IMG/VR virus record: IMGVR_UViG_3300008111_001299 | Location: 1 to 42,055 of that record | Reading direction: 5' to 3' (one strand) | DNA: 42,055 nt | From: a virus | Shown: piece by piece, positions 1,746 to 42,055 of the stretch | Numbering within the stretch: the stretch's first letter is position 1 | How the letters are laid out: the number at the start of each line of letters is the position of its first letter | Position numbers and translations under genes: made by a program | Notes under the pieces: model-generated | Databases searched by the model: none | What the model was told of the DNA's origin: nothing | What the model saw: the letters and a program-made list of their open reading frames with translations, nothing else

Positions 1746-1770
1746 CCGGGCTTTTTCCGGTAAATAGTTG

Positions 1771-3813: not shown

Positions 3814-3974
3814 TATACACACCCATAGATTGGTGGTTTGACTATACTGTATGGTTGATGCTACAATATAAATTTATGGCCCCGGCAAAAATGATCAGTG
3901 CCAACGACGACATGGAACAGTTTTTAAAATGTTTCAGTTTAAACGGAATAAAACAATTTAGTATCTGTAGATGA
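3810..3974 (+). CDS. small hypothetical protein (54 aa)
   Basis: The GTG start overlaps the cyclase stop (GTGA) and the TGA stop overlaps the next ATG (ATGA), so it is translationally coupled on both sides. That is the main argument that this short frame is real. The product is hydrophobic and aromatic at the N-terminus (IDWWFDYTVWLMLQYKF) and has two Cys near the C-terminus. I do not recognise a family. It may be a small membrane-associated phage protein. Confidence 0.55.
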   Translation: MIYTPIDWWFDYTVWLMLQYKFMAPAKMISANDDMEQFLKCFSLNGIKQFSICR

Positions 3975-26583: not shown

Positions 26584-27072
26584 GCACTCAGAAATCTGTA
26601 ACATAATTCTAGGGGAATAACTTATATTGGCAGCACCGTGTAAATCGGTAGCATAGTCAAATTGATATAAGTCCCCTAGTTTGTAGTCCTTAATCATCTC
26701 CCCTTTATAGATAAACACATGTCCGGGCTCATAGTCCATGAGTGGCATCCAGTATCTTTTAACATCAGAAGTATGAGTGAACGGATCAGAGTGCATGGGC
26801 ATGTATTGTCCAGGCATTAATTTTGTAATCCACCAACTGGCCTTACCTTGACTCCAACTAGGTTGAATATCTATTTCTAGATCATCTTTTTCGTAGATCG
26901 TCCACAGCGGCTTTGAAAAATCGTAACCTGCTTCTTGGGCTAGTTGATATTGCTCTCTTTCAAAGTAATTTAAAAGATCTCCAAGATCAGGTCTTGGTTT
27001 TCCAGGCCGTTGATTAACCAATTCAACCCAACGCGGATCTACCCAATCTTTGTAATTTCCTATTAGATTCAT
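26578..27072 (-). CDS. 2OG-oxygenase-like (aspartyl/asparaginyl hydroxylase-type) protein
   Basis: The 164-residue product has MPGQYMPMHSDPF (~residues 87-99; HxD-type His-Ser-Asp), a DYEPGHVFIYKGE strand, and LHGAANISYSPRIMLQIS with distal His and Arg. This is the cupin-like core of Fe(II)/2OG hydroxylases. It follows the 27074 gene with a 1-bp gap, so the two probably share a transcript. The substrate is unknown. Confidence 0.7.
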   Translation of the reverse strand: MNLIGNYKDWVDPRWVELVNQRPGKPRPDLGDLLNYFEREQYQLAQEAGYDFSKPLWTIYEKDDLEIDIQPSWSQGKASWWITKLMPGQYMPMHSDPFTHTSDVKRYWMPLMDYEPGHVFIYKGEMIKDYKLGDLYQFDYATDLHGAANISYSPRIMLQISECL

Positions 27073-27073
27073 T

Positions 27074-27889
27074 TTAATAACTGTCTACTTGATCTATACC
27101 TAGTTTCTTTCTAAAGTTTTCAGTGAACACACAGTCTATCCTAACTCCGTATTCTTGTTCTCTAGAAAATTCTCCACCGTGCCAGTCTTGGTCATTCCAA
27201 AAACTAGCATGGCCATTCATATAACATTTATTTTCCGACTCTGAATCTCTAACATAAAATCCACGCTTAGTCCTAGAGCGCATGTGAATGAATTCATTTT
27301 TGTGAGGAGTATATTGATCGTTATTGAATATTCCGTTCTTAGCATCTAGGTCACGATGTTCAAAAGCAACTCCATTGTGATCACACAAAAATATAATCAC
27401 CCTTCCTATCTGTGAAATAACATCTGTGTCTATAAGATTCTTAATCCATGCAACTAACCCGGGAAAATATTTAGATTCTTCGGTTTGATTTTTTTCAGAA
27501 TTTCTAGTATCCCAATTTCCTTCTTCCCAAAGAAAATAATATATGTAAGGATCATTTGCTCCCATAGTTGCTTTGAGATATCTAGTAAAAATATTTCTCT
27601 GTTTATAGTCTTTGAAGTTATTAGGAAATATTTCTTTACCTGCAACCTTAATAGGATCATTATCTGGGAGTGCCTGATATTCGTCAAATGCCTTATGTAT
27701 AGGTTTCCAATCAATAATGTAACTAGCATCTGCCCATCTAAATCCAGGAGCCATCCAAGTTCCTTCTTTGGCATACTCTCTAGCCAAAGCCATACCTTTG
27801 GATATTTCAGGGTGTAGATTTTTGAATCCTTCTATGTCTAAGTAAGGATCGAGATTGATATAGGGCTGACCGCCAATTCCTTTGATCAT
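27074..27889 (-). CDS. 2OG-oxygenase-like protein (271 aa)
   Basis: The C-terminal half contains FEHRDLDAKNG (HxD at ~178-180), followed by a beta block and WHGGEFSREQEYGVRIDCVF (distal His ~239, Arg ~251). The N-terminal half (~1-150) is more helical and not recognised. The start lies 5 nt after a perfect TATAAATA box on the - strand, so the mRNA may be leaderless. Confidence 0.65.
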   Translation of the reverse strand: MIKGIGGQPYINLDPYLDIEGFKNLHPEISKGMALAREYAKEGTWMAPGFRWADASYIIDWKPIHKAFDEYQALPDNDPIKVAGKEIFPNNFKDYKQRNIFTRYLKATMGANDPYIYYFLWEEGNWDTRNSEKNQTEESKYFPGLVAWIKNLIDTDVISQIGRVIIFLCDHNGVAFEHRDLDAKNGIFNNDQYTPHKNEFIHMRSRTKRGFYVRDSESENKCYMNGHASFWNDQDWHGGEFSREQEYGVRIDCVFTENFRKKLGIDQVDSY

Positions 27890-27915: not shown

Positions 27916-28620
27916 ATGAACACTGAGTTTGAATACTACTATAATAATGTTCCGGACAAGGGACTCTGCAGAAACAATTTGATTTATACTAGCCTAATCA
28001 GCCACGATAAAAAAACATTTTGTCAATGGTATTACAATGATCAAGGATATCATGGCGGAAAAAATCAAGTAGTAGATCCTAGTCTAATGGAATCAAAATG
28101 GCTACGTGAAGTGAAATTTATTAAACTTATAAGTGAACACTATCCAGAACATGTTCCTGAAATTCTAGACATAGATTATATTAACAGAAAAATCTTTCTA
28201 AAAATCGACGGGCCCGATATGTGGGAATTAGCAGGTTGCCAAGGTAAAGACTATACTAGCGTTCTTCCTAATTGGGAAGAACAGATGCTAGACATTATTC
28301 AAAGTTATCAATCGCTAGGCATTTATAAAATGTCCATGCATCCTAGCAGTTATTTTATCATTGACGGAAAAATGAAAGGTATAAATTATTTTTTCTGTTA
28401 TACTGACGAAGATGAAGAAATATCTATGAGTAGTCTAATGAGTCATATCAGTAAAGATCGTCAAAAAACTCTACAACCTATATTTGACTCTTTGAAAATT
28501 AATCCCGATGAGCCAACTGCTTTTTGGAAAATACAGATGCTGACCTTTGAAACGTTTAAAACAAACTTCTTAGACAGCACTATGGAAAAGGCTAAACTGA
28601 TTTATCAACGGCCTGTTTAA
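27916..28620 (+). CDS. kinase-like-fold protein, copy 1
   Basis: The 234-residue product has REVKFIKLISEHYPEHVPEI and DIDYINRKIFLKIDG, like the N-lobe to hinge of aminoglycoside/RIO-type small kinases, then MHPSSYFIIDGKMKGINYFF, where a kinase would have HxD/N and DFG-type Asp. Here the second position is Asn (INYFF), so it may be a pseudokinase. It is paralogous to the product at 30699-31379. Its end overlaps the convergent SDR-like gene by 29-30 bp. Confidence 0.5.
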   Translation: MNTEFEYYYNNVPDKGLCRNNLIYTSLISHDKKTFCQWYYNDQGYHGGKNQVVDPSLMESKWLREVKFIKLISEHYPEHVPEILDIDYINRKIFLKIDGPDMWELAGCQGKDYTSVLPNWEEQMLDIIQSYQSLGIYKMSMHPSSYFIIDGKMKGINYFFCYTDEDEEISMSSLMSHISKDRQKTLQPIFDSLKINPDEPTAFWKIQMLTFETFKTNFLDSTMEKAKLIYQRPV

Positions 28621-29221
28621 TTCTGTCAACTAATTGATCCAACTGCGGTTTAGTTTTCATCTTAGTTGATATTTGATCATAGAGTAAATCTGTAATCTTA
28701 AAATTAAATCTTACATTATTGAAACTGGGATTCCGTATCCAAAAATCCACAGTGTCAACTACTTCGTCAAAAGATATAGTATAGTCACATTTAAGATTAT
28801 TAGGATCGTCTATGTCTACAATGTTGCCTTCTAGGCAGGAAAGATCGAGATGCAGTATTTTTGTTTTGCTATTTTTGTCTAGAGAAATTAAATGACAAAC
28901 TTCTGCTAGATCTTTTTTATTTTTTCCATAATCTGTAGGTATTAGATCATTAAAGAATCCGCCTTGTGATCCTGATACCACTAACATCTTTACTTGATTA
29001 TTTAGATGCTTAACTAATTCTATTTGTCTACGATCTGCATAAGCATTACTAATAAACAGATCACAATTTTCTGCTGCGGCAATCACAGAGTCAATGGATG
29101 TCTTAATATCCGTTCCTTGGCTTCTACTAAATCCTATTACTGTATTGTTAGGATCCTTGACAAAATGATCATAAAGTTTTTTGCCTAGACCTTTAGTATG
29201 ACCTGTTATAACTATTTTCAT
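28592..29221 (-). CDS. short-chain dehydrogenase/reductase-like protein, copy 1
   Basis: ATG 29221 (TGATG overlap with the upstream stop) is preferred to the preceding TTG. The 209-residue product begins KIVITGHTKGLGKKL, the TGxxxGLG dinucleotide motif, has FISNAYADRR where SDRs have NNAG, and YGKNKKDL as the YxxxK catalytic pair. It probably binds NAD(P)H and reduces a sugar-nucleotide or similar carbonyl. Paralogue at 30229. Confidence 0.7.
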   Translation of the reverse strand: MKIVITGHTKGLGKKLYDHFVKDPNNTVIGFSRSQGTDIKTSIDSVIAAAENCDLFISNAYADRRQIELVKHLNNQVKMLVVSGSQGGFFNDLIPTDYGKNKKDLAEVCHLISLDKNSKTKILHLDLSCLEGNIVDIDDPNNLKCDYTISFDEVVDTVDFWIRNPSFNNVRFNFKITDLLYDQISTKMKTKPQLDQLVDRIKQAVDKSV

Positions 29222-29391
29222 CAAACTAAATTCTTTTTTACAAAATCTAAAAATCCGCTAGGCATTTTTGTATCCACAATTTGTTTGACTTCTTCAATCT
29301 CATAAAGATCCTTTAGAATCTTATACATAGCAGCATTGGCCTGCTGTAACTCCATGAACTTTTTTAAGAAGAACTCGTCTTTGTTATCCAT
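29221..29391 (-). CDS. small helical protein (56 aa)
   Basis: ATG 29391 has an AGAGGA ribosome site 7-8 nt upstream; an earlier in-frame ATG (29412) would lie inside the preceding gene. The product is one or two helices (FFLKKFMELQQANAAMYKIL, VDTKMPSGFLDFVKK). Unknown function; it is coupled to the SDR-like gene. Confidence 0.55.
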   Translation of the reverse strand: MDNKDEFFLKKFMELQQANAAMYKILKDLYEIEEVKQIVDTKMPSGFLDFVKKNLV

Positions 29392-29392
29392 A

Positions 29393-30232
29393 TCAATATC
29401 CTCTGCTATCATCTCTTTTTAAATTACTTAGACAGAAAATGATAGCAAATTTTTCGCCTTCGGTTATTTCCTTGCTTTCGTGTATCAGTGACCAGTCTAA
29501 ATCTAAATCTTCAGTGTGGTTCCAAACAGACATTCTACCTTTTTTAGGTTTGATAGAAACATCGATGTGCGGAAAGTATGTTTCACCGCCAACAAAATCA
29601 TCATTAAGATAAACCAGTGCTACTGCATCTCTAGTTCCTGCTTTTTGATAATAATCTAATTTTCTTGGATCGTATGGCCAATCATGATGTGGAGTCATGT
29701 AATGACCTTTTTGATAGTACAATATGTCTGCCGACTCTATGAGATAGTAAGGTCTACCTAACGCATCGGATGCGGCAGTTGAAATAGTATCATAATCTTG
29801 ATAGGTAAAATCGTTAAGTATCCTTCTGTGGATATTGCGATCGTTGGCCTGACCATATGTATCTCTAGAACAATCTGACCTATGGTCTCCCATGGTAATA
29901 TACTTTCCAGGATAATCTAGGCTAAGACTACGCTTGATTAGATCATCACAATATTCATCGGATAGAACATTATCATAGATACTTACTCTTGGATAATCAT
30001 GAAGAATAACTTCTTTAAACTTAGGCGACTGTTCTTTAATTTGATCATAACTAAAATTAATTACATTAAGATCAAAGATCGAATTGTCAATGACTTCAAA
30101 TTCTACACGTTGACCTTCTAACAAACAACCTTGTCTGTAATTGAACACCGGAATTTCCGTACCATTATCGGAAGAGATGAGGCCATAAGATTTCGAGTTG
30201 TTAAACCATTTAACTGTTCCAGTTTCCATCAT
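29393..30232 (-). CDS. cold-shock-like domain fused to a prolyl-4-hydroxylase-type 2OG dioxygenase
   Basis: Residues 3-60 resemble a cold-shock domain: TGTVKWFNNSKSYGLISSDN, then LLEGQRVEFEV and LNVINF; the RNP2 VFVH motif is degenerate (IPVFNY). Residues ~75-270 form a P4H-type oxygenase with YYQKGHYMTPHHDW (iron ligands His182, Asp184), GTRDAVALVYLNDDFVGGE, distal His251 (LIHESKE) and 2OG-binding Lys261 (EGEKFAIIF). The two parts are in one uninterrupted frame. A nucleic-acid- or ribosome-targeted hydroxylase is a possible reading. ATGA overlap with the upstream SDR-like gene. Confidence 0.75.
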   Translation of the reverse strand: MMETGTVKWFNNSKSYGLISSDNGTEIPVFNYRQGCLLEGQRVEFEVIDNSIFDLNVINFSYDQIKEQSPKFKEVILHDYPRVSIYDNVLSDEYCDDLIKRSLSLDYPGKYITMGDHRSDCSRDTYGQANDRNIHRRILNDFTYQDYDTISTAASDALGRPYYLIESADILYYQKGHYMTPHHDWPYDPRKLDYYQKAGTRDAVALVYLNDDFVGGETYFPHIDVSIKPKKGRMSVWNHTEDLDLDWSLIHESKEITEGEKFAIIFCLSNLKRDDSRGY

Positions 30233-30702
30233 TTAGTCCTGTATGAAAATGCTATAATGTCAGTATTTAGTAACCAAAATTTAATAGAATCGTAGATCAG
30301 CCTGCTGTCTTTATATACTTTACCTGTGAGATTTATGATCAGCAAATCGCTGACTTTTTTCTCTAATGCCTGTTTCATAAAATAGTCATCTAATTCTTTT
30401 TTGTTCTGACTGTATTCTACCATAGTAGAATCTGGATATCTTGCAGCCACAGTTCCCATCACTACTATTTTATTATTAGTATTGATTAAATTTTCTAAAA
30501 TCTTTTTTTGGACACCGTTGGCATAGGCATTTAAAATCACTAGACTGTTTTCTTCTATCTGTGAAATTATTTTTGCATGATCTTTTTCTATGTCGTAACC
30601 GTTGGTTCTATCAAACCCAGAAACATCGTATCCGTCTTTGATAAAGTAATCGGCGATATGTTTTCCAAGACCTCTGGATTTACCTATGACATAAACTTTC
30701 AT
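30229..30702 (-). CDS. short-chain dehydrogenase-like protein, copy 2 (short)
   Basis: The 157-residue product has YVIGKSRGLGKHIADYF (a Rossmann start with GxxxGLG), VILNAYANG in place of NNAG, and EYSQNKKELDDY as YxxxK-like. It is shorter than the 28592 copy at the C-terminus. It is coupled to the kinase-like gene upstream and the fusion gene downstream by ATGA overlaps. Confidence 0.65.
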   Translation of the reverse strand: MKVYVIGKSRGLGKHIADYFIKDGYDVSGFDRTNGYDIEKDHAKIISQIEENSLVILNAYANGVQKKILENLINTNNKIVVMGTVAARYPDSTMVEYSQNKKELDDYFMKQALEKKVSDLLIINLTGKVYKDSRLIYDSIKFWLLNTDIIAFSYRTK

Positions 30703-31379
30703 TTGTTAAAAATTAAATCGTGTATAAATTTTAAATTTTTATCGCCCCACGATACATGCTCTTGTAATCCTCTTTTAAACATGATTTCTAGATTGTAATA
30801 GTCTCCGACTAACGGCCCAGTTTCGTCTAATCTAAATTTTGCTGATTCGTGTATAATAGCGTCCATATATTTTCTATGGATAAGAGGATGTTCTATAGGA
30901 ACACAACCATACCAATCTATGGCTTTTAACTGACCCTGATCAGTGACATAATGACAATGACTGTACATAGTTAATTTATAATAGCCTTCATTGATCTGAT
31001 CTAGCATCACATCTTTTAATTGTTCGAGCCAATCTAGCGGCCAGTTACTGTCAGTATAGACAATATGATTACAACTGTTTCCATACCATTTTATAAAGAT
31101 TCTTTTGTTGACATAATCAATTTCTAAAACTTCAGGAGCATAATCTTTGCCAGCAAAATGCTCTAAGTTTTTTATATCGTTATTAAAAAACCAATTTATA
31201 ACTTCTTGATCATAGAGAGGTCGTTCGCCCATGGATTGGTGATACGAAGTATGCAAATTATAATTTGCACAGAATACAGTGCCTTCGGGATTTATCAAAG
31301 GTTCATAGGTAGTTTGTGCCATACCTAGTTTACCCGTTTCACTGAATTTATGGTAGTGATTCCAATTAGAGATATTCAT
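30699..31379 (-). CDS. kinase-like-fold protein, copy 2
   Basis: The 226-residue product has YAPEVLEIDYVNKRIFIKWY (matching the first copy's PEILDIDYINRKIF) and MYSHCHYVTDQGQLKAIDWY, where His and Asp (AIDW) sit at the positions expected for an atypical kinase's catalytic and metal-binding residues. This copy keeps Asp where copy 1 has Asn. It is the first gene of the - strand operon ending at 28592. The substrate is unknown. Confidence 0.55.
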   Translation of the reverse strand: MNISNWNHYHKFSETGKLGMAQTTYEPLINPEGTVFCANYNLHTSYHQSMGERPLYDQEVINWFFNNDIKNLEHFAGKDYAPEVLEIDYVNKRIFIKWYGNSCNHIVYTDSNWPLDWLEQLKDVMLDQINEGYYKLTMYSHCHYVTDQGQLKAIDWYGCVPIEHPLIHRKYMDAIIHESAKFRLDETGPLVGDYYNLEIMFKRGLQEHVSWGDKNLKFIHDLIFNK

Positions 31380-31418: not shown

Positions 31419-32384
31419 ATGTCTACTCAATTTCAACCCTCTACATTATGTTGGTACAACGATAACGGTATCAATTTACCAATGATTTCTGATCATGCTA
31501 GAAATCAATTCTATCAACGTATACTATCCAAATCAGTAAAGAATAAAACATGTATCGATGTTGGATTTGGAACTGGTTTATTATCTCTAATGGCTTTAGA
31601 ACAGGGTGCTGAAAAGATAATTGCTTTTGAAACAAACGCCGAGCGATATCATCTAGGTTTAGATATTATTGAAAAGTTAAAACTTAAAAATCTAATTGAC
31701 CTAAGAAATGAACGATATTGTTCAACATATTTCAAAGATCAAAATTGTGTGATAATACAGGAAATCGTTGGACACAATTTATGGAATGAGGGTCTAAGAT
31801 TTATTATAGATAAAGATCAAGTTTTAGTTCCTGGAGACTTCTATTGCGAATACTATTGCTGTCCTATTGATGAAAATATCTATCAACAGTTTATAAGCCT
31901 TCATGCAGACCCAAGTAAAATAAATCTAGGAATTAATTTAAACAATTTTAATTTTTTAAAATTAATTTATGAATATCAAATAAAAGAGCAAAATGTAATA
32001 AATTTAAATGACGAGAAATTTATCAAAGACATTTACAAAGATCTATTATCTAAAGGCAGTTTAATTGGAAAGTATTGCGTACTTACTAATCAGAAAAAAT
32101 TGTTGATCAACGAAGCGACAGTAGAATATAATTTAGACTGTGATCAGGTAGGATATATTGATGTTCCTTTAACTATAAATTTGAAATTTGATTATTCAAT
32201 AATATTAGCCAAATATTTTATAGGACACAATGAAGATCTGCTAGTTATATCTCCCAGTGAAGATAATCCAACTTCTCACTGGGCAGTGCCCAATCCTGTT
32301 TGCGTAATATCTGATTTAGAAAACAGTTTTATAGCCAGAACTTATCTAGATGACGGTTCTGTAAGAGTGTATCCTAAGAAATGA
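31419..32384 (+). CDS. PRMT-like class I methyltransferase
   Basis: The 321-residue product has motif I CIDVGFGTGLLSLMALEQGA (residues 45-64) and an acidic residue after the next strand (FE, 71), followed by IIQEIVGHNLWNEG, where Glu114 and Glu123 are nine residues apart, the spacing of the double-E loop that binds substrate arginine in PRMTs. The C-terminal half is beta-rich, like the PRMT barrel. I infer protein arginine (or similar guanidino) methylation; the THW-loop His is not obvious. Its 3' end overlaps the convergent gene by 43 bp. Confidence 0.65.
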   Translation: MSTQFQPSTLCWYNDNGINLPMISDHARNQFYQRILSKSVKNKTCIDVGFGTGLLSLMALEQGAEKIIAFETNAERYHLGLDIIEKLKLKNLIDLRNERYCSTYFKDQNCVIIQEIVGHNLWNEGLRFIIDKDQVLVPGDFYCEYYCCPIDENIYQQFISLHADPSKINLGINLNNFNFLKLIYEYQIKEQNVINLNDEKFIKDIYKDLLSKGSLIGKYCVLTNQKKLLINEATVEYNLDCDQVGYIDVPLTINLKFDYSIILAKYFIGHNEDLLVISPSEDNPTSHWAVPNPVCVISDLENSFIARTYLDDGSVRVYPKK

Positions 32385-32980
32385 AAAATGTAATTTGGCC
32401 TGTTGCTATTATTGATCAACGAATGTAGTTCTTTAGTAGTAGGCCACTTTACTACTGTGTGCTTAGATACATTTTCATATTTGTTATCACCAACTATAAA
32501 AATCTGATCTTGTACAGGATCATCTATGAATACCATGTATCTGACTAGATTTTTCTTTTCTAATTCAATCCAAGTTTTTTCTTGATCAAATTCGTCTTTG
32601 TGAAAAGGTATAGTTGAGTATGCATCAACTCTGCTAATCCAACATTCCTGAACTGAGTGTCCAACAAGACTTTCAAACTTATCTACTATGGATTTTGAAA
32701 AATGATTCTCAGAATTATATTGTTCAAGATTTGGATAAAAATTTTGAAAGGTTATTTTTGTAAAATCAAGTCCCTGATCAAAATAGTTCTTTACCATTTC
32801 AGCAAACGGTGTTCTACTAAATTCAAATGGTAATAGTCCTTTATCGATAATCTCTTGATAAGTTCGTAACTCTGTTTTTTCTGTATCAATAGTTTGGTCT
32901 ACATGACGTATTGAACCTGTCTTTGAGTCTAGGCTCTGAATAATGTCATCCCAATTTATAATACCAACTGTGGTTATCAT
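32342..32980 (-). CDS. 2OG-oxygenase-like protein (212 aa)
   Basis: ATG 32980 lies 4 nt after a perfect - strand TATAAATA; an earlier in-frame ATG (33001) would lie upstream of that box. The product has STIPFHKDEF (HxD) near residue 125, VRYMVFIDDPVQDQIFIVGD and a distal NYIFHFLGYTL. A double-stranded beta-helix hydroxylase is likely; the 2OG-binding residue is not clear. It ends antisense within the PRMT-like gene. Confidence 0.55.
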   Translation of the reverse strand: MITTVGIINWDDIIQSLDSKTGSIRHVDQTIDTEKTELRTYQEIIDKGLLPFEFSRTPFAEMVKNYFDQGLDFTKITFQNFYPNLEQYNSENHFSKSIVDKFESLVGHSVQECWISRVDAYSTIPFHKDEFDQEKTWIELEKKNLVRYMVFIDDPVQDQIFIVGDNKYENVSKHTVVKWPTTKELHSLINNSNRPNYIFHFLGYTLTEPSSR

Positions 32981-32984
32981 AAAG

Positions 32985-32992
32985 TATTTATA
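32985..32992 (-). promoter_or_regulatory. T4-late-like promoter TATAAATA
   Basis: A perfect box on the - strand, 4 nt before the ATG at 32980. Confidence 0.65.
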
Positions 32993-33008
32993 GTGGTACA
33001 TTATAGCC

Positions 33009-33016
33009 TATAAATA
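33009..33016 (+). promoter_or_regulatory. T4-late-like promoter TATAAATA
   Basis: A perfect box on the + strand; the A of an in-frame ATG at 33016 is its last base, so translation more likely begins at ATG 33025 or 33028. Confidence 0.65.
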
Positions 33017-33024
33017 TGATACTT

Positions 33025-34206
33025 ATGATGCTGTTCCAAAAAAAACTTTCTCCAACGATTGAACATTTCAATCAAACATCTCCGTTAGAACAATGGTCGG
33101 CTGAGTTGAAAGAAGACTACTGTTTCTACTACAATTGGATCGATCAATTATATGATTTTCGGTTTGATAATTTTTTAACCGATACGCATATTAATTTTTT
33201 AAGGCAAAATCCTAATATCAAAATTGTTTACGATTTTAACGGAGAACCGATAGTTGAAAATATTTTATTGGATATATTAGAAACTGCACAGCAATGGGAA
33301 CTTAATGATGATCAAATTATTTTGATTGTTAGTAATATTTTACAAACAAATTTTGTCAATGAAAGACTAAAAGAAATTCGTAGTGTAAGAACTTATGAAT
33401 GGAATTACGATATTAAAACTACGTTGATCTCCCAGCCTGCAAATGATATTGAAAAGAAAAAATTCAGCACCACTTGTAGATTACACAGGCCCTGGAGATC
33501 TTATATAATTTGCAGATTAAAAGAACGACATCTCATAGATAATTTTCATTTTTCCTTTATGGGCTGTGAAAATAATATGACTGTTGCATTAGACAAAGTT
33601 ATATCTGAAAACAAAGATATCAGTATTACTCTAGCCGAAGGCGACTGGAGTATTATTGCCAAACACGATAAAATTAAAAAAGACCTTACGAATATCTGCG
33701 GAATGTTATTAACAGCAGACATGAACAACTTTATTGATCAATGTCCACATTATATAGAAAAAGAAAGATTCAAGACCGATGTTGAAACTCCCCAAGAAAT
33801 ATTTCATTCAGATTTTCATCTTGTGATAGAAAATGGTTTTTTTGATTTAAACGAATCTGCATATACTGTTCGATCATTTGAGATGGGGGAGAAGACATGG
33901 AAGGCTATTATAGCATCGAAACCTTTCTTAGTTTACTCAGATCCGGGTTATTTGCATTCTCTAAAAAAACTAGGTTTCAAAACCTTTGATACTTGGATAG
34001 ATGAATCATACGATAACGAAACAGATCCTAAATCTAGAGCAGAAATGATCATAGATCAAATTGAAAAAATTAATAACCTAAGCATAGAAGAATATACTAA
34101 CCTATTGCTAAACTGTAAGAGCATAACTGAACATAATTTTTCAATTTATTTTAATCTAAAGTCTAAACAACAAAACTTTACAGACATAAATTTTAATAAA
34201 ATATGA
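33025..34206 (+). CDS. glycosyltransferase-like protein
   Basis: The 393-residue product ends with a diagnostic block, GEKTWKAIIASKPFLVYSDP, then YLHSLKKLGFKTFDTWIDES, as in viral and bacterial fucosyl/hexosyltransferase-type proteins where Glu-Lys binds the nucleotide sugar. The N-terminal ~270 residues are not recognised in detail. No membrane segment is evident. It heads a three-gene + strand operon (33025-36172) with two 4-bp overlaps. It would transfer a sugar to a phage or host acceptor. Confidence 0.65.
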   Translation: MMLFQKKLSPTIEHFNQTSPLEQWSAELKEDYCFYYNWIDQLYDFRFDNFLTDTHINFLRQNPNIKIVYDFNGEPIVENILLDILETAQQWELNDDQIILIVSNILQTNFVNERLKEIRSVRTYEWNYDIKTTLISQPANDIEKKKFSTTCRLHRPWRSYIICRLKERHLIDNFHFSFMGCENNMTVALDKVISENKDISITLAEGDWSIIAKHDKIKKDLTNICGMLLTADMNNFIDQCPHYIEKERFKTDVETPQEIFHSDFHLVIENGFFDLNESAYTVRSFEMGEKTWKAIIASKPFLVYSDPGYLHSLKKLGFKTFDTWIDESYDNETDPKSRAEMIIDQIEKINNLSIEEYTNLLLNCKSITEHNFSIYFNLKSKQQNFTDINFNKI

Positions 34207-34943
34207 TATCCACTTCTTTAGATTTCTATAATGAAAACAAACACATACCGTATAAATTGCCGGCTCCTCCTGACGAGAATCTAAATGATTATCAGTTATG
34301 TGATTGGCTTTTGAATCGTAGTGATTTTTCTTGGTTAGAACTAGATGTACAATTCGATGTTAATAAATGGCAGGAAGAAATACTCAGTTGTAAGGATTTT
34401 TTAGTGCCGCACAGAGACAGTGAAAGTTCTGGATGGGAAAGTGCCTGTATACACGGAATAGATATTCAATCCACAGGAGCATGGACTAGATACGGATATA
34501 AGAACGAAGATGATGTTCCCTACCATTGGACTGAACTTGCAGATCAATGTCCAAATATAAAAAAGTTTTGGTCAGAGTTTCCTTATGACAGTTACAGACG
34601 TATAAGGATCATGGCTGTGAAACCCGGAGGTTGCATAAATCCTCATAGCGATATGCCTGGCAAATTACCTGGAGAGGAAAACTTTGATGCATTAAAATTT
34701 GGTGTGCCTATAAATGTAGCAGTAATACATCCTAAAGAATGCTACATGAGTTTAAAGGGTCACGGAGTTGTTCCTTTTAAAGAGGGCAAGGCTTTTTTAA
34801 TTAATATTAGAAATTATCATAGTGTAATAAATTTCTCCGACGAGATTAGATATCATATTATTGCACACGGAAAACTTCAAAATAAAACTGACAAATTTGT
34901 AAAGTTAATATCGGATAGTTTTAGAAAACAATTTGTAAAATGA
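34203..34943 (+). CDS. aspartyl/asparaginyl beta-hydroxylase-like 2OG oxygenase
   Basis: The 246-residue product has MAVKPGGCINPHSDMPG (His-Ser-Asp iron ligands near 149-151), VPINVAVIHPKECYMSLKGH, the PFKEGKAFLINIRNYHSVIN block with distal His ~210, and EIRYHIIAHG (Arg for 2OG). The motif order matches Asp/Asn hydroxylases (Asp_Arg_Hydrox-type). ATGA overlaps at both ends tie it to the glycosyltransferase-like and 34940 products. Confidence 0.75.
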   Translation: MISTSLDFYNENKHIPYKLPAPPDENLNDYQLCDWLLNRSDFSWLELDVQFDVNKWQEEILSCKDFLVPHRDSESSGWESACIHGIDIQSTGAWTRYGYKNEDDVPYHWTELADQCPNIKKFWSEFPYDSYRRIRIMAVKPGGCINPHSDMPGKLPGEENFDALKFGVPINVAVIHPKECYMSLKGHGVVPFKEGKAFLINIRNYHSVINFSDEIRYHIIAHGKLQNKTDKFVKLISDSFRKQFVK

Positions 34944-36172
34944 ATGTAATTAAATTCGGCCAGTATAAAAAAAGAAAAATAGTATTTTGTTTTTTAGATA
35001 CACTGCATCTCTGTCAGGATAATTTTACTAAAGAAATAATTAAAAATCAATCCGATTATGTGATATCTAGTTTAATCAGCAAAAGATTCAATGTGTATCA
35101 AGGTCAAGACGAAGATCAATTATTAGGTTCCGCAGCAGAAGATGGATATGAATGTGCTGTGATGTTTAGCACTGGCACTGAATTTATTAATGGAAACATA
35201 TTCTTTAAAAAAACCAAAGAATTAGTAAACACAGATTTTTTCATTTGCGGCCATGTGTTAGATCGTAAAGATGCCTATTACGAATTACATCAACAATGTT
35301 ATATTATAAATCTCAAAATCTATGAAAAGTTAGGTAGACCTTTAATTGGCAAACACACGTGGAATTCTCCGCATCAACAAATAGAACCAAAAAGAAGTCT
35401 AGAAAATTTTCATGATGAATACACTCCCAAATATGTAATGCCGGGCACAGATCTAAAAGACTATCAACATAAGTGTCATGGATGGAACATTTTAAAAACA
35501 GCATTTGAAAATCAATTGCAGGTATTAGTTTTTGATGAAGAATTTAGATCAGGTAAGACACATCACTATCCGGAGTCTCGAAAAGATTTCTATAAAAATT
35601 TAAGATGGATTTATTACAGAGAAAACGAATGTCTATATAATTTTGTTCACACTGCAAATTCAGAGTTTAAAAGAAGATTAACAGGTCAGTATGAACAGAT
35701 AGTGATTCCGGCCAGTGGTACTTTATATCTAAACCTGATAGACAAAGGTGACGTGATAATCTATGATTATAATCAAAAATCTTTAGACTATTGGCAAGAA
35801 CACCTGCCTCGTAAAGAGAATGTTAATTATAATTTTGTAAAAACGGATCTGCTGATAGATAATAATTTGATAGATCAAATACAGGATAATAAATCAACAT
35901 TAATTAATCTATCTAATATATTTGCCTATGAGGGTACCGCTGCATTTAAACCCTTGTTTTATAGATTACACAAAGAAAATCAATTAATAGAAAGTCTACA
36001 AAAAAAGATTCCAGATATTTTTATAATATTTTCAATACGATCCGTTACTGGTTTTTTAGAATTACCTCTTACTGGAAATTCGTCTCTTATCAAAACTACA
36101 GATATAGAAAAACTAAAAAGGCCTACTTGGCATCATAATGACGATTGGTTAATCAAACCTTTACAATACTAA
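34940..36172 (+). CDS. large uncharacterised protein, possible transferase with a Rossmann-like C-terminal half
   Basis: The 410-residue product has HVLDRKDAYYELHQQCYIIN and LKIYEKLGRPLIG (~105-135), segments reminiscent of sugar-modifying phage proteins. A second half (~250-390) has DKGDVIIYDYNQKSLDYWQE and NFVKTDLLIDN, with the strand/acidic pattern of SAM- or nucleotide-binding folds. No decisive catalytic motif is seen. It is co-transcribed with a glycosyltransferase-like and a hydroxylase gene. Function unknown. Confidence 0.55.
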   Translation: MNVIKFGQYKKRKIVFCFLDTLHLCQDNFTKEIIKNQSDYVISSLISKRFNVYQGQDEDQLLGSAAEDGYECAVMFSTGTEFINGNIFFKKTKELVNTDFFICGHVLDRKDAYYELHQQCYIINLKIYEKLGRPLIGKHTWNSPHQQIEPKRSLENFHDEYTPKYVMPGTDLKDYQHKCHGWNILKTAFENQLQVLVFDEEFRSGKTHHYPESRKDFYKNLRWIYYRENECLYNFVHTANSEFKRRLTGQYEQIVIPASGTLYLNLIDKGDVIIYDYNQKSLDYWQEHLPRKENVNYNFVKTDLLIDNNLIDQIQDNKSTLINLSNIFAYEGTAAFKPLFYRLHKENQLIESLQKKIPDIFIIFSIRSVTGFLELPLTGNSSLIKTTDIEKLKRPTWHHNDDWLIKPLQY

Positions 36173-36848
36173 AATCATCAACAAATTTATTTTGGATTTC
36201 TTCTAGAATAGAATTTTCTATGTCAAACCATATTTGTTTTTGATCTGTTTTAAAATTATTAATCAGAGATTTTTTACAAGCATGATTTAGCCAAGGACTT
36301 ACTTGATCGTCAAAGATAAATCTAAATTTTTCTTTGCGGTTTCCTGTATAATTCATTTGTACTCGTACAGGGTCAACTAATATATTTTTAGGTAATAGTT
36401 TTCTCACAACAAGTTGTATACGAGGAATTGAACCGAAGTTGGCTGCTACATGTCGACATCCAGCATTCATTTCATACCATTCGCCGTCTACTTCTGTGGG
36501 AAACATCTGTTGATTTTCTAAATTGATAAGATAGGAATATTGTCCTTGCAGATTTAAGTGATATCGATCATCTATATCTGAATGACTATGATAGCAAGTT
36601 CCTGGCTTAAGAACAATTAATCTTGCTTCGCCTATAGGTTTTGGTAACGAATCTAATATGTCCTCAAATACCGTATTGCGAAAATTGTCTTTAATTTTCC
36701 AAAAATCATAGAAAAAATCGCCCGACGGTTCGTTGAGTTCAGTTTTTATTTTATCATCGCCACTGTTTATAATAGAACTAACATATTGGTCATTACATAT
36801 GGACAATATTTTTTCTTTAGAAACTGCGATGGATATAGGGTTCATCAT
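36153..36848 (-). CDS. 2OG-oxygenase-like (aspartyl/asparaginyl hydroxylase-type) protein
   Basis: The 231-residue product has LIVLKPGTCYHSHSDIDD (HSD iron ligands near 88-92) and NAGCRHVAANFGSIPRIQLV (distal His ~131 and Arg ~142). Beyond ~155 a C-terminal extension carries no known motif. The start lies 5 nt after a perfect - strand TATAAATA. Its 3' end overlaps the convergent gene by 20 bp. Confidence 0.7.
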   Translation of the reverse strand: MMNPISIAVSKEKILSICNDQYVSSIINSGDDKIKTELNEPSGDFFYDFWKIKDNFRNTVFEDILDSLPKPIGEARLIVLKPGTCYHSHSDIDDRYHLNLQGQYSYLINLENQQMFPTEVDGEWYEMNAGCRHVAANFGSIPRIQLVVRKLLPKNILVDPVRVQMNYTGNRKEKFRFIFDDQVSPWLNHACKKSLINNFKTDQKQIWFDIENSILEEIQNKFVDDFSIVKV

Positions 36849-36890: not shown

Positions 36891-38165
36891 ATGTCTATCA
36901 ATAATTCAAAAACTTTCTGCATGCACCCGTTTACTGGTCTTGCAACTAGAGAAGATGGTGCGATCAAAATCTGCTGTCGAAGCCTTCCTATAGGTTGGAT
37001 ACAAGAAAACAGTTTAGAACAAGTTTGGAATAATGACAAAATGCAGCAGGTTCGTAAACAAGTTTTATGTGGTGAGAGACCAGAGGTTTGCAAACCGTGT
37101 TTCGACTTAGAAGATCAAGGAGTTGAAAGCCTTCGTCAGCGACATATTAATGGCGTTATTCCCGAAGCAAGGATTAATCTGTATCCAAATGCGCTGGATC
37201 AACTTCGAGAAGATTATACCATGCCTTTTGAATTTCCTACTATGGAAATTAAGATCAATAATCTTTGTAATCTTAAATGCAGAATGTGCAATCCTTTAGA
37301 CAGCACCAGTTGGCAGGATTGGGATCAAGTGAAACCATTCTATGAAAAAGAAAATAATTACCTAGTTCCTACTATATCAAAATTAGTTAGAAAGCCCGGC
37401 CAATACATAGGCCCGTTTGAAGATACAAATCACTGGTGGGAAAATTTTGAACAACTACTTCCTCATTTCCGTAGAGTAGAATTTGCCGGCGGGGAACCTT
37501 TGATGGATCCTTATCATTATCGTATTTTAGATATGTTAAAACCTTACGGAAAAAACATAGAAATAAAATATGCTACTAATGGCACTGTATTAGGAATCAA
37601 AGGAGGTAGAACCATTCACGACTACTGGCCTTACTTTAAATCTGTAGCGGTCAATGTCAGCATAGACGGTATACATGATGTTTATAATTACATTCGCACT
37701 AACAGCAATTTTGATGATGTAGAAAAGAACATAAAAGAAATACAAAGTATTCCCAATGTAAGCAGAGTAGTTGGTGCGTTTACTGCTCAGGCTGCTAATA
37801 TTTTACAGATCTCCGAGTGCATTGATTATTTTTTAAATCACATGGACATTGTTTTTTACAGTCACAGAGTTAGTTACCCCAATTGTTTATCAGCACAGGT
37901 TCTACCCCAAGAGTTAAAACAGTTGGCTATAGAAAGATTACGGAATGTTGAAAGTAAATTATGGACGTTTGATAAAATCAATCAAAGTAGCCTACTTGAA
38001 AAAGTCACTCGACAGCAGATCAAAGACAATATAAATTATCTACAAGCCAAAGATCAACATCATTTATGGAATGATTTTTTAGAATTCAATAGAAAATTAG
38101 ATGAAACTAGAAATCAGAAACTATTAGATGTGATTCCAGAATTTAAAGAATACGTTAACGATTAA
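36891..38165 (+). CDS. twitch-domain radical SAM protein
   Basis: An N-terminal Cys-rich auxiliary-cluster region (FCMHPFTGLATREDGAIKIC, Cys10, Cys28/29; VCKPCFDLE, Cys67 and Cys70) precedes the radical SAM CxxxCxxC at Cys126, Cys130 and Cys133 (NNLCNLKCRMCN), then VEFAGGEPLMDP (the GGE motif) and YATNGT. The auxiliary 'twitch' cluster placed before the core is unusual but recurs in phage proteins. It would cleave SAM to a 5'-deoxyadenosyl radical for peptide or sugar modification. First gene of a three-gene radical SAM operon. Confidence 0.85.
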   Translation: MSINNSKTFCMHPFTGLATREDGAIKICCRSLPIGWIQENSLEQVWNNDKMQQVRKQVLCGERPEVCKPCFDLEDQGVESLRQRHINGVIPEARINLYPNALDQLREDYTMPFEFPTMEIKINNLCNLKCRMCNPLDSTSWQDWDQVKPFYEKENNYLVPTISKLVRKPGQYIGPFEDTNHWWENFEQLLPHFRRVEFAGGEPLMDPYHYRILDMLKPYGKNIEIKYATNGTVLGIKGGRTIHDYWPYFKSVAVNVSIDGIHDVYNYIRTNSNFDDVEKNIKEIQSIPNVSRVVGAFTAQAANILQISECIDYFLNHMDIVFYSHRVSYPNCLSAQVLPQELKQLAIERLRNVESKLWTFDKINQSSLLEKVTRQQIKDNINYLQAKDQHHLWNDFLEFNRKLDETRNQKLLDVIPEFKEYVND

Positions 38166-38167
38166 AA

Positions 38168-39064
38168 ATGTTTAAAGTTACTAGTGTATGGCCTCATCAA
38201 GATCAATTAAAAGTTGAATGGAACCTGGGTAAACGATGTAATTACGATTGCAGTTATTGTCCTGCCAGTGTGCATGATAACTTTAGTCCGCACACCGACA
38301 TTAACATTTTAGAAAAAACTGTAGATCGTTTATGTGAACTAGATAAACCTTTGCGTATTAGCCTAACCGGCGGTGAGCCCTGCGTACACCCGGACATAGA
38401 AAGTTTATTAGAATACTTTAAAAGAAAAAATATCTACTGGGTCAATATAACAACCAACGGCACAAGAGGATATCAATGGTATTTACAGCACGAAATGTTT
38501 TTTAACCATTTAGTTTTTAGTCTACATTTTGAACAAGATTGGACACGTATAGTCGATACTATATTAAAATATTACGATAGCACACAGCAAGATTTCTTTG
38601 TAAATGTAATGGCACATAACAATAAGATGGATCATGTCAGAAATGTTGTTAAAGCATTTAGCGACATAGGAATCAAATATGCTGTTCGTAGAATCCGTTG
38701 GACGGAAGGGGATCATAATGTATTTGACGACCTTCGATATGATGGAAAAGATCTACAATGGATCTTGGAACAGGACGCTACAGCGAAACCTAATTGCAGA
38801 ATAGACAATGAAACGATTATTCATGCTAATGATGTAATAAAAAAACATATGAATCAATTTAAAGGCTGGACATGTAATGCTGGTCTCGAAAGCCTCATGA
38901 TCAATTGGGATGGAGAAGTGCATCGTGCAACTTGTAGAGTTGGTGGTAGCCTAGGCAACATATACCAAGGTACATTTACTGAGCAATTACAACCTATAAG
39001 TTGTACTAGAGATTGGTGTACCTGTGCAGCAGATATTCCTTTAACAAAGATTAAAAATGATTAA
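38168..39064 (+). CDS. radical SAM protein with C-terminal Cys cluster
   Basis: CxxxCxxC at Cys24, Cys28 and Cys31 (KRCNYDCSYCPAS), SLTGGEPCVHPD (GGE-type) and TTNGT. The C-terminus has WTCNAGLESLMINWDGEVHR, TCRVGG and CTRDWCTCAAD, giving at least five Cys for an auxiliary SPASM/twitch-like cluster. The 298-residue length is short for SPASM proteins. Paralogous to the next two radical SAM products. 8-bp overlap with the next gene. Confidence 0.85.
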   Translation: MFKVTSVWPHQDQLKVEWNLGKRCNYDCSYCPASVHDNFSPHTDINILEKTVDRLCELDKPLRISLTGGEPCVHPDIESLLEYFKRKNIYWVNITTNGTRGYQWYLQHEMFFNHLVFSLHFEQDWTRIVDTILKYYDSTQQDFFVNVMAHNNKMDHVRNVVKAFSDIGIKYAVRRIRWTEGDHNVFDDLRYDGKDLQWILEQDATAKPNCRIDNETIIHANDVIKKHMNQFKGWTCNAGLESLMINWDGEVHRATCRVGGSLGNIYQGTFTEQLQPISCTRDWCTCAADIPLTKIKND

Positions 39065-40148
39065 AGTGGATGCTGTTAGACTTGTAAAACCAGAGCCCAT
39101 GATGATTACTTGGGATGTTGGTCGCAGATGTAATTACGACTGTAGTTACTGTGAAATATCTCGACATGATAATATCAGTAAGTTTCACAGCATTGACGAG
39201 TATTTAAAAACATTTGGATTTATAAAGCAGTGGACCAACACTTATAATAGTAACAGAAAAGAAAAAGTATCTACAAATATAAATTTCACAGGCGGTGAAC
39301 CTACACTTAACCCCGCTCTTTGGGAATTGGCTGACGCAATTAAAACAGACTCCGACGACTTTAATCTAAGTTTGACCACTAACGGTGCGTGGAATAGAAA
39401 ATATACAGACAGACTGTTAAAAAGATTCAATGGAGTTACGGTCAGTTATCACACAGAAGGTCACACTAATTTAAAAAAACAGGTAATAGAAAACATATTA
39501 GAATTATCAAAGACTGATATGCGTTTACAGGTAAATCTAATGATGCATGTAGATCATTGGAATGAATGTTTAGAAGTTTTTGATGTGTTAAAATCTAATA
39601 ACGTACTGGTAAAACCTAGACCAATCGGCGACGGTAACATAGAACGCACAGGATGGTTTATAGATTCAGACGGATCAAATAGAAGAACCAGTCATCAATA
39701 TACTGCTGATCAACAACTATGGTTTTCAACTATAGCAGGTCACAACATTTCTGTATGCGAAAACAAAACAGAAGGCACGGGTCTAGGAAGAGGGTGCTGC
39801 GGCGGTCGTTGTATGGAAGGTAAGATAAACAATCAATGGCAGGAAATTAAAATTATCGATACTAATTTTAAAAACTGGAACTGTATGGTCGATTGGTTTT
39901 TCCTGCACATAGATCAACATACAGGTTTAGTCTATCATCATCAAACCTGCCAGGCTCTTCACGAAAATAAAAGAGGAGCCTTAGGTAATCTTATAGATTC
40001 AGATATTTTAATAAAAGATCTAGAACAAAGAATGCTCAATAAAACAGCGATTGTCTGTCCTAATAATAGATGTGGTTGCGGAATGTGTATTCCAAAGTCT
40101 AAAGACGGTGTTGTTTTTAAAGAACTCTGGGACAGCGTAGTTAACTAA
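39057..40148 (+). CDS. radical SAM protein with Cys-rich C-terminus
   Basis: CxxxCxxC at Cys25, Cys29 and Cys32 (RRCNYDCSYCEIS), INFTGGEPTLNP and LTTNGAW. The C-terminal third has many Cys (RGCCGGRCMEG, NWNCMVDWF, TCQALH, VCPNNRCGCGMC), enough for one or two extra iron-sulfur clusters. 363 residues. It converges with and slightly overlaps (8 bp) the - strand radical SAM gene. Confidence 0.85.
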   Translation: MIKVDAVRLVKPEPMMITWDVGRRCNYDCSYCEISRHDNISKFHSIDEYLKTFGFIKQWTNTYNSNRKEKVSTNINFTGGEPTLNPALWELADAIKTDSDDFNLSLTTNGAWNRKYTDRLLKRFNGVTVSYHTEGHTNLKKQVIENILELSKTDMRLQVNLMMHVDHWNECLEVFDVLKSNNVLVKPRPIGDGNIERTGWFIDSDGSNRRTSHQYTADQQLWFSTIAGHNISVCENKTEGTGLGRGCCGGRCMEGKINNQWQEIKIIDTNFKNWNCMVDWFFLHIDQHTGLVYHHQTCQALHENKRGALGNLIDSDILIKDLEQRMLNKTAIVCPNNRCGCGMCIPKSKDGVVFKELWDSVVN

Positions 40149-41136
40149 CCTTGTGCTTTGCTAAGGTCACTTCTCCGTTACATAAACACTGTAATTGTTT
40201 ACATATAACTGGTTTAATTTCCGGTGAAAAATTCTGCACAAAGTCTTGATCAAAAATATTAAAATAATAATCTAGTCCGTACAACTTCTGATTACAGTTT
40301 ACAGTAATATCACCATTAAATAAAACCTTTATATCATTTACGCCAACGGTGCATTCCCAACCAGAGAAATAATTTAATTTGTTTAATCTTATCCAAGAAT
40401 CCGAAGGCAATTCAAAAACTTCACCGTCTTCGAATGTTACCCAATATCTGTTGATAGTTCCTCTAAAAAATTCTTCTACTTCCTTAAAGTCAGGAACTCT
40501 TTTCTTTGCTGATTGCAAATAGTCCTTCTGCTCGGATGGATAACTGGTAACTCCGTCGATATGTATAGCCTTAAGAATAATAGGCCAATTATATTTGCTT
40601 TCTGACTGAAACTTTTCAACGATGCTTCGACATTTGTCAAAGTTCTTTGGATCCATGAGTACGTTAGCAACTACCATATGCTTATGAGAAAACAAATAAT
40701 CGGCTACTTCTATAATATGATTAGGATCACAGAATTCATTATGAACCGATATCTCAATATGATCAAACAGTTTAGCATACTTTTCCCACCAATGTACTTT
40801 TCTAAATCCATTAGTAGCCATATGAACAATAATTCTATCCTGATACTTGTTTTTAAAATGGGTTAAAAACTCAGGCAAATGTTTCCATAAGGTAGTTTCG
40901 CCACCTAACAAATACAACTGTATAACATCTTTGTTATTTTTTAGGTAATAATCGAATAGGTGAGTAAAATTATTTTTTAATAATTCTACGTTCTCTCCCG
41001 CGGGCCAGGGAATATCACCTTCGTGAGAACCAGGAAAACAATAATTACAACTGTAATTACAGGTATTTCCTATTGCCCATTCTACTCTGATCTTTTTAGG
41101 ATCATGATTGTTTTCAATTTTAATAATCTTTTTCAT
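40141..41136 (-). CDS. radical SAM protein with SPASM-like C-terminus
   Basis: CxxxCxxC at Cys26, Cys30 and Cys33 (NTCNYSCNYCFPGSHEG), LYLLGGETTLWKHLPEF and HMATNGFRK. The C-terminus has WECTVGVNDIKVLFNGDITV, NCNQKLYG and VICKQLQCLCNGEV, resembling the 38168 product. The 331-residue protein is translated in coupling with the broken upstream radical SAM gene (4-bp overlap). The substrate is unknown. Confidence 0.85.
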   Translation of the reverse strand: MKKIIKIENNHDPKKIRVEWAIGNTCNYSCNYCFPGSHEGDIPWPAGENVELLKNNFTHLFDYYLKNNKDVIQLYLLGGETTLWKHLPEFLTHFKNKYQDRIIVHMATNGFRKVHWWEKYAKLFDHIEISVHNEFCDPNHIIEVADYLFSHKHMVVANVLMDPKNFDKCRSIVEKFQSESKYNWPIILKAIHIDGVTSYPSEQKDYLQSAKKRVPDFKEVEEFFRGTINRYWVTFEDGEVFELPSDSWIRLNKLNYFSGWECTVGVNDIKVLFNGDITVNCNQKLYGLDYYFNIFDQDFVQNFSPEIKPVICKQLQCLCNGEVTLAKHKVS

Positions 41137-42055
41137 TCTACCAGTGTACTTAGTTCTGGGAAATACTCTTTGAAATTAGTCTTTCTAAGTGTATCCAATT
41201 TTTCTATATATTCTTTAAACGCTGGCAATAAATGCGTATGATCCTCTGCGTCCATGAAGTCTAATACTGCCTGCCAACGTTTCCACCCATAAGGATTTTG
41301 TTTCCAGAAGTCTTCGTCTTGGCGATAGTTTTCATGCAACCAATTAGCCAACTCCTCAAACTTACGTCTTACTTCTGCTTTGTCTTCTAGAGGTAAACAA
41401 CGTATACTCAAGAATGTAGGAATGTACAATAAGTGCATATTAACAATGCCTCCACCTGCTTGTATTCCCCCAGTGACATTTTCAAAGTTTATTTTTTAGA
41501 ATCTGTATAGCAGTAGCGATACTGACTTCTATGTTGCTAGGAGTGTTATCTAATATATGAAGATTTTTTTCTATCTTCGCCCAATCGCTAGGATATCTTA
41601 TGTAGTAATTTCTTTCTCCCACTGCGTCAATACTAAAACCTACTTTAACTTTTTTAAATTTTTTCCATAGATCTATAATTGAATCATCTACTAATAAACC
41701 GTTAGTGTTATATCTAATTAATATTTTGTCAGCATATCCTTGGCGTATAATTTCTTCTAAGAATGTTTTATGTTCTTTGATCAGTAAAGGTTCACCGCCT
41801 GCAAAATAAACCTGTTTGAGATTAGGAATCTGTGCATACATTTCTTTCCAGAATTCTGGATTTTCATGCCAATAATTGTCAAAAGTTTTTTGATCCCATT
41901 GCATCTGGTCTTTGATTGCATCATGCTTGAACAAAGGAAATATCTTTTTATGATCTTGAACCCATAGACTACTGTCATGCGGACTACACATTACACATTT
42001 CAAGTTACAGGTGTGGCCAAGTCTCAAATCCAAATAGACCAATTTATCAGGTACT
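41133..42055 (-). pseudogene. radical SAM (twitch-type) gene, frameshifted and cut by the window end
   Basis: The 5' part (42055-41482, open past the window edge) encodes the radical SAM core: GHTCNLKCVMCSPHDSS, VYFAGGEPLL and RYNTNG. It ends at TGA just after ILKNKL. The C-terminal part continues in the +1 frame (KINFENVTGGIQAG...), giving YIPTFLSIRCLPLEDK and ending at 41133. The switch lies at a run of six A on the - strand (41497-41492); removing one A restores a single frame. It may be a real mutation, an assembly or sequencing error, or programmed frameshifting. The upstream N-terminal region is not in the window. Confidence 0.75.

Follow-up and report, generated by a model that had tools for sequence, protein, structure and literature searches.

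What do five adjacent radical S-adenosylmethionine (rSAM) genes do at one end of a viral contig, and on what do their products act? The question is raised by IMG/VR virus record IMGVR_UViG_3300008111_001299, a linear record of 42,055 bp with 28 tRNA genes that was analysed over its whole length (hereafter 'the window') and in which rSAM genes occupy positions 36891-42055. The window most likely contains the left portion of a modular enzyme island, situated where a T4-like jumbo phage encodes host recognition. Exchangeable radical-chemistry and oxygen-using enzymes in this large aquatic bacterial virus probably decorate a viral or cell-surface molecule. The more specific reading, to which a probability of about 40 % is given, is a modular multistep modification pathway whose target would most likely be a virion or host-recognition protein. 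The rSAM genes, designated rS1 to rS5, are the following.

36891-38165, plus strand: rS1, N-terminal-twitch rSAM enzyme, 424 aa (PF04055, NF033640)
38168-39064, plus strand: rS2, core rSAM enzyme with a C-terminal single auxiliary-cluster motif, 298 aa (PF04055)
39057-40148, plus strand: rS3, accessory rSAM relative of rS2, 363 aa (PF04055)
40141-41136, minus strand: rS4, rSAM relative of rS2, 331 aa (PF04055)
41133-42055, minus strand: rS5, N-terminal-twitch rSAM gene, 5′ part beyond the contig and frame broken (PF04055, NF033640)

Gene families were assigned by Pfam and NCBIfam cut-offs (29.5 bits for PF04055, 170 bits for NF033640), and weaker matches are marked as below cut-off. All five genes exceed the PF04055 cut-off, with a CxxxCxxC core, in agreement with a sequence-only reading of the window that had proposed five rSAM proteins. 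The same reading had taken rS1 for a twitch-type enzyme with auxiliary cysteines before the core, and rS1 is indeed a full-length N_Twi_rSAM protein (NF033640, 334 bits, residues 6-421), with PF04055 at 39.1 bits and a SPASM match (PF13186) at residues 10-70. The twitch type proposed for rS5 stands as far as the family is concerned (PF04055, 49.9 bits, at 42054-41482(-); NF033640, 216.6 bits in the core and 54.7 bits in the C-terminal portion), but the stretch is not one open gene. DNA comparison with the near-identical contig IMGVR_UViG_3300008113_000090 (loci L006 and L087; whole record G011) reveals that 53 bp present in L006 are missing inside the window copy, leaving the frame broken and the open reading frame (ORF) 41133-41438 as the orphaned C-terminus. 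An intact rS5 of 473 aa with an N-terminal Cys region is present in G011; the deletion may be biological or an assembly error.

The products of rS2, rS3 and rS4 fall below the NF033640 cut-off, and none of them reaches any curated subfamily cut-off. Their shared CNY(D/S)C(S/N)YC core and Cys-rich C-termini, pointed out in the sequence-only reading, reappear as invariant cysteines in a 35-sequence alignment, namely C24, C28 and C31 in the core and C236, C256, C279 and C284 near the C-terminus. The latter four fit a single predicted auxiliary Fe-S cluster in rS2-type enzymes. The description of the three proteins as close paralogues does not hold, as BLASTP identities are 28 % over 179 aa (rS2/rS3), 21 % over 327 aa (rS2/rS4) and 22 % over 170 aa (rS3/rS4); by sequence they are distant relatives (about 20-33 % identity) with a common core and C-terminal motif.

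A scan of viral contigs with rS2 gave 136 relatives, the best 80 of which were kept as loci (67-100 % identical), each extending at most 10 kb on either side. With the two closest relatives left out, rS2 is 67-85 % identical across 78 loci, and it is the most conserved island protein, with a median identity of 79 % versus 63 % for rS1 and 44 % for the product of the AspH-type gene at 36153. A profile scan located rS2 relatives on 430 viral contigs; no cellular relatives were detected in two scans that covered 84,980 bacterial and archaeal species by a single genome each (short-peptide-pattern searches). Among the 80 loci, rS1-like and rS5-like genes are each present in 74, the AspH-type gene in 65 and rS4-like genes, with a median identity of 36 %, in 61; rS3 is the best window match in 26. 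Gene order is retained as well, rS1 lying upstream of rS2 and within three genes of it in all 66 evaluable loci. The dN/dS ratios of the tested island genes (10/10; window against L007) range from 0.02 to 0.13, and the island genes are therefore under purifying selection.

The cluster of five also proved to be an underestimate imposed by the contig edge: the island runs past it, with nine rSAM genes in G011, and whole related contigs carry 7-15. In control phages the counts are one in T4, none in P-SSM2 and one in HTVC008M. Separately, 19 rSAM matches were counted in G015, the 281,658-bp contig of locus L216, where one group lies near 145-158 kb and a second near 230-262 kb.

On its left, the island adjoins a candidate substrate gene:

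25117-26583, plus strand: host-recognition-type protein with an Mtd_N domain and GN-x-TG repeats, putative substrate (PF18454, 38.9 bits, above cut-off)

PF18454 is the Major tropism determinant N-terminal domain. The first island gene overlaps the 3′ end of this gene, and in 7/11 loci the genes of Mtd_N protein relatives share a few bases with an island gene. The right end of the island is marked by a tRNA-like RNA, by c13, a variable protein rich in Ser, Thr and Gly, and by ThyX; in almost all loci, 294-434 bp separate c13 from an rSAM gene of the island. In loci L226 and L228, c13 closely follows a relative of the Mtd_N protein and rSAM genes are lacking within 3 kb, an arrangement resembling an empty site, and in some relatives the island is replaced or absent. 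Given this Mtd_N/c13 junction without rSAM genes and the identity of the flanking genes, the island is a variable insert in the host-recognition region. A gp23-type T4 major capsid protein is encoded in the two longest related contigs, G001 (363,943 bp) and G002 (269,730 bp); the related contigs are therefore T4-like jumbo phages. The 42-kb window holds no capsid region, and would be T4-like by its relatives.

Modules of this kind have been noticed before. Campylobacter phages CP220 and CPt10 carry five adjacent rSAM genes and a putative glycine amidinotransferase as an interchangeable module, and 11-12 rSAM genes in all, which were called 'highly unusual' with no function given (Timms et al. 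2010, PMC2853527). These too are T4-related phages in which the module is near baseplate genes, with gp5 and PAAR genes nearby in both, and is swapped between relatives. The combination of adjacent rSAM genes with amidinotransferase genes also occurs in G011, which has nine of the former and two of the latter, the amidinotransferases being past the window end. Profiles made from the island match the amidinotransferase of CP220 (E 2e-33) and, with E values as low as 8e-30, its c2-type rSAM genes; CPt10 is matched as well. However, neither phage has a match to AspH or any other 2-oxoglutarate (2OG) oxygenase family of the island or a close rS2 orthologue (28 % over about half of the protein), the module is smaller and the host group is another.

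Pelagimyophages have rSAM gene cassettes in a hypervariable host recognition cluster, at tail-fibre genes with glycosyltransferases (PMC7029224). The present island likewise adjoins a host-recognition gene, and curli-related genes are found elsewhere in the genome, but HTVC008M has a single rSAM gene. In phiKZ-like phages, an rSAM cluster was noted in pPa_SNUABM_DT01 (PMC8541153) and eight rSAM genes lie inside the structural gene cluster of 332-Vera (PMC12390700). The number of rSAM genes (six to eight) is similar and, in DT01, 2OG oxygenases are located beside the cluster and a central-spike gene is near; on the other hand, these phages belong to another lineage, their matches to rS2 and rS4 profiles are weak (4e-8 to 4e-4) and no amidinotransferase match was found in them. 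Within the N_Twi_rSAM family, to which rS1 and rS5 belong, the difference is that two paralogues occur together in a phage island. For a module noticed earlier yet uncharacterised, the new points are its scale, its conserved core and the connections between phage lineages.

In related contigs, 2OG oxygenases, methyltransferases and a protein of GT-A fold are found in the same island as the rSAM genes; homologues in cofactor-synthesis contexts were not seen in the related loci. In the window, the other island genes are listed from the rSAM genes leftwards.

36153-36848, minus strand: 2OG oxygenase of AspH type (PF05118, 19.1 bits, below the cut-off of 22.6)
34940-36172, plus strand: two-domain protein with a GT-A-like N-domain and a Rossmann methyltransferase-like C-domain (structure model)
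34203-34943, plus strand: 2OG oxygenase of the aspartyl/asparaginyl beta-hydroxylase family (PF05118, 35.1 bits, above cut-off)
33016-34206, plus strand: 396-aa protein, glycosyltransferase-like by eye only; only in the two closest relatives
32342-33001, minus strand: 2OG-oxygenase-like protein that clusters with homologues of 26578; no Pfam match
31419-32384, plus strand: protein arginine methyltransferase (PRMT)-like methyltransferase (phmmer, PRMT7 E 3.8e-9, PRMT3 6.7e-9)
30699-31379, minus strand: weakly kinase-like conserved protein (profile A5 against protein kinases, E 0.007); 43/80 loci
30229-30702, minus strand: short protein resembling short-chain dehydrogenases/reductases (SDR-like; PF00106, 26.4 bits, cut-off 26.6)
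29393-30232, minus strand: 2OG oxygenase with an N-terminal cold-shock domain (PF13640, 39.1 bits, and PF00313, 34.3 bits, both above cut-off)
28592-29224, minus strand: weakly SDR-like protein (PF00106, E 0.034, below cut-off); homologues in 25/80 loci
27916-28620, plus strand: weakly kinase-like conserved protein, paralogue of 30699; homologues in 32/80 loci
27074-27889, minus strand: conserved island protein, 2OG oxygenase by eye only; 41/80 loci, no meaningful Pfam match
26578-27072, minus strand: 2OG oxygenase-like protein at the left edge of the island (PF05118, 18.5 bits, below cut-off)

The PRMT-like assignment made in the sequence-only reading is sustained, with the similarity to PRMT7 and PRMT3 covering the SAM-binding part and the double-E and THW loops seen by eye only; the gene is limited to L006 and L007, the two closest relatives. 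A glycosyltransferase-like protein had also been proposed. This is supported by fold for the product of 34940 and not for that of 33016, which gave no significant match to families or the PDB. The model of 34940 (pLDDT 88.7) comprises a GT-A-like domain (residues 10-224) and a methyltransferase-like domain (residues 228-382; e.g. EgtD, Z 9.7). The best VIA-align matches of the GT-A domain are nearly tied: STIV A197 (Z 10.0, root-mean-square deviation 2.9, 142 aligned), human LH3 (9.9) and the PBCV-1 capsid glycosyltransferase (9.9); such Z values speak for a fold and do not point to a substrate. The AspH gene at 34203 is directly upstream of the 34940 homologue, on the same strand, in 17/22 evaluable loci. 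Relatives of 34940 and 27074 were searched for in cultured phages and no match was obtained.

Past the window end, G011 continues with more 2OG-like genes, a DegT aminotransferase and a 632-aa B12-binding rSAM protein, while relatives add a class III aminotransferase and a tryptophan halogenase. The halogenase gene is situated within the rSAM island of G002 (L094:14638-16248; PF04820, E 2e-83) and, by similarity, at G009:83179-84753. In the 2OG/SDR part of the island, window positions 29221-29412 encode a helical family of about 60 aa with a conserved FMEIQxQN motif, found also in about 20 fetched loci, some of them from the same contig.

A multistep peptide, protein or glycan modification pathway, as suggested in the sequence-only reading, accords with an island of 2OG oxygenases, a GT-A-fold protein and methyltransferases next to an Mtd_N gene; the substrate may be a protein, a peptide or a glycan. 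In the favoured form of such a pathway, rSAM enzymes with one auxiliary cluster would functionalise unreactive C-H bonds by oxidation, epimerisation, cross-linking or C-methylation, AspH-type 2OG oxygenases would hydroxylate, and the transferases (GT-A/methyltransferase, amidinotransferase, PRMT-like) would elaborate the product. The substrate would most likely be a virion or host-recognition protein that the phage itself encodes, with the neighbouring Mtd_N protein as one candidate. The near-constant core (rS1, rS2, rS5 and the AspH-type gene) may provide a common modification, and exchangeable accessory enzymes may vary it, leading to altered adsorption or a hidden virion. Genes, families, synteny, purifying selection, exchangeability and location are observed; joint action in one pathway, a protein as substrate, which protein this is and the timing we infer.

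A virion or host-recognition protein is preferred as the target because of the position of the island, the AspH and PRMT-like families, the AspH/GT-A gene pair and the fold similarity of rS2 to SkfB, anSME and CteB. The structure model of rS2 (pLDDT 90) aligns nearly full-length with these three (Z 16.6, 16.3 and 16.1, respectively) and shares with such SPASM-twitch enzymes an auxiliary-cluster domain; it differs from them in its four invariant auxiliary cysteines, an identity of 15-19 % and the lack of any precursor gene found. Further reasons are the 7-19 rSAM genes per related contig around a constant core, the purifying selection, the collagen-lysine and viral capsid glycosyltransferases among the tied best matches of the GT-A domain, the Mtd_N left flank, and the location of rSAM modules near structural or host-recognition genes in CP220, CPt10, DT01, 332-Vera and pelagimyophages.

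Several observations weigh against this reading. An Mtd_N-type gene was seen in only 11/80 loci within the span covered by each, and no substrate motif was demonstrated. The protein c13, although conserved in the flank, was rejected as a dedicated substrate, since rSAM genes are missing within 3 kb of 23/74 independently fetched copies (51/74 have one), which marks it as backbone. The best fold match of rS2 is the nucleoside enzyme BlsE (Z 17.7), viperin and MoaA are within about 2.5 Z of this top match, and the fold comparison is thus non-discriminating as to substrate class. Finally, amidinotransferases, DegT and class III aminotransferases and SDR-like proteins are usually small-molecule enzymes.

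The last point leads to a close rival, which is possible though not preferred: the island may make a small guanidino- or amino-sugar or cyclitol-type metabolite or glycan unit for attachment to glycans of the cell surface or the virion. The rSAM enzymes would then act as dehydrogenases, epimerases or dehydratases, the aminotransferases would aminate, the StrB1-like enzymes would guanidinylate and a glycosyltransferase would attach the unit. Among solved proteins, the nearest to the two amidinotransferases of the near-identical contig is streptomycin StrB1 (1bwd; E 9e-99 and 4e-73), with full-length similarity and the GG-x-HC-x-TLD active-site motif in 18/23 copies. The aminotransferases named above fit such a route, the CP220 module pairs its rSAM and amidinotransferase genes with two genes annotated as NDP-sugar-transferase-like, and the fold matches include two twitch rSAM enzymes that act on aminocyclitols, BtrN and SpeY. 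Yet amidinotransferase genes occur in only 13/54 loci of at least 15 kb and are therefore not core, AspH and PRMT-like enzymes are protein-modifying families, and the SDR matches in the window are weak.

It is improbable that the rSAM enzymes mature a ribosomally synthesised and post-translationally modified peptide (RiPP) whose small gene is located inside or close to the island and which could, for instance, be secreted as an effector against competitors. The SPASM/twitch-type architecture and fold matches to RiPP maturases would suit this, and B12-rSAM and 2OG enzymes are found in known RiPP pathways. However, no RiPP precursor had been recognised in the window, and the screen of small intergenic ORFs across the 80 loci likewise produced no convincing conserved candidate: its 519 ORFs resolve into likely antisense artefacts, an Hc1-like protein, a membrane protein and the helical family at 29221, which has no core-like variable tail. 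Tight gene packing also leaves no space for a precursor beside rS1-rS5, although one might be encoded at a distance or in trans.

Modification of phage DNA bases or tRNA against host defence is more improbable still. Phage rSAM enzymes (QueE) occur in 7-deazaguanine pathways, a gene that is QueD-like by eye and ThyX are in the right flank, and one 2OG enzyme has a cold-shock domain; but ThyX is flank backbone, present also in contigs without nearby rSAM genes, the QueE-like NCBIfam scores are far under cut-off, and the variable presence of most enzymes mismatches a genome-wide base modification. That one or more of the genes are viperin-like and make antiviral nucleotides for superinfection exclusion is very improbable and largely refuted by cut-off, for although PADLOC pVip models match all five rSAM proteins over the core region and viperin-like enzymes reach Z 15.6 among the rS2 fold matches, the NF038283 scores of the five (28.5-50.3 bits against a cut-off of 180) come from matches that do not extend past the generic rSAM core, and the four-Cys motif near the C-terminus is suggestive of an auxiliary cluster.

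Returning to modification of a virion or host-recognition protein, a narrower and rather doubtful version places the phage-restricted rS2 family and its N-twitch partners at the core of an exchangeable pathway of hypermodification, through which the phage would chemically diversify receptor-binding or tail proteins of its own. Such chemical diversification might, on the same speculative footing, be a counterpart to the genetic diversification of tropism determinants. Phages rich in rSAM genes, called 'highly unusual' since 2010, are here widespread among aquatic jumbo phages. The core is defined (rS1-rS2-rS5), Campylobacter phages share homologous parts and the genomic slot next to a host-recognition gene is fixed, which turns the oddity into a testable system, and a conserved enzyme of about 300 aa without detected cellular relatives is now available together with named candidate substrates. 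If virion proteins are modified, phage-host recognition would gain a new level, and novel enzymes could be drawn from such phages.

The tRNA-like RNA at the right end of the island is a conserved element of 107-114 nt, found at L087:4137-4247 and 81 other places (36 distinct sequences in 82 places). It lies between the last island rSAM gene and c13/ThyX, and also occurs without nearby rSAM genes. A 7-bp acceptor, T-arm, encoded ACCA and long variable arm are apparent, with a TATAAT-like box upstream. An unusual arm replaces the anticodon arm, with a GNRA-like tetraloop in one type and a CAUAG loop with a co-varying stem in another. ARAGORN makes no call, and the Rfam tRNA score is 25.4 bits versus a gathering threshold of 29. 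A supposed small protein (cluster c11) is the antisense reading of this RNA and was discarded. Likewise, c17 was set aside as QueC; its PP-loop and Cys motif are QueC-like, yet the profile search gave no QueC structure.

A phage IscU (PF01592) is encoded in G002 (L096:10134-10833), where an IscA-type gene adjoins it, and in ten other island contigs; in G005 the match is interrupted by a stop. As island-specific Fe-S support it was rejected: it is present in 11/12 island contigs, yet also in G021 and G018, which have no or one weak rSAM match, and is considered lineage backbone.

Three genes at the far left of the window are also of note. The product of an open-ended gene at 1-1440 combines curlin-like repeats (PF07012, just under cut-off) with an F5/8 type C domain; published pelagimyophages have CsgF/CsgG and lack recognisable CsgA/CsgB (PMC7029224). 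Positions 1768-3813 encode a CHASE2-domain adenylate/guanylate cyclase, with a 78 % identical gene in the 364-kb relative G001, and positions 3971-4690 a peptidase S11 of the D-alanyl-D-alanine carboxypeptidase family.

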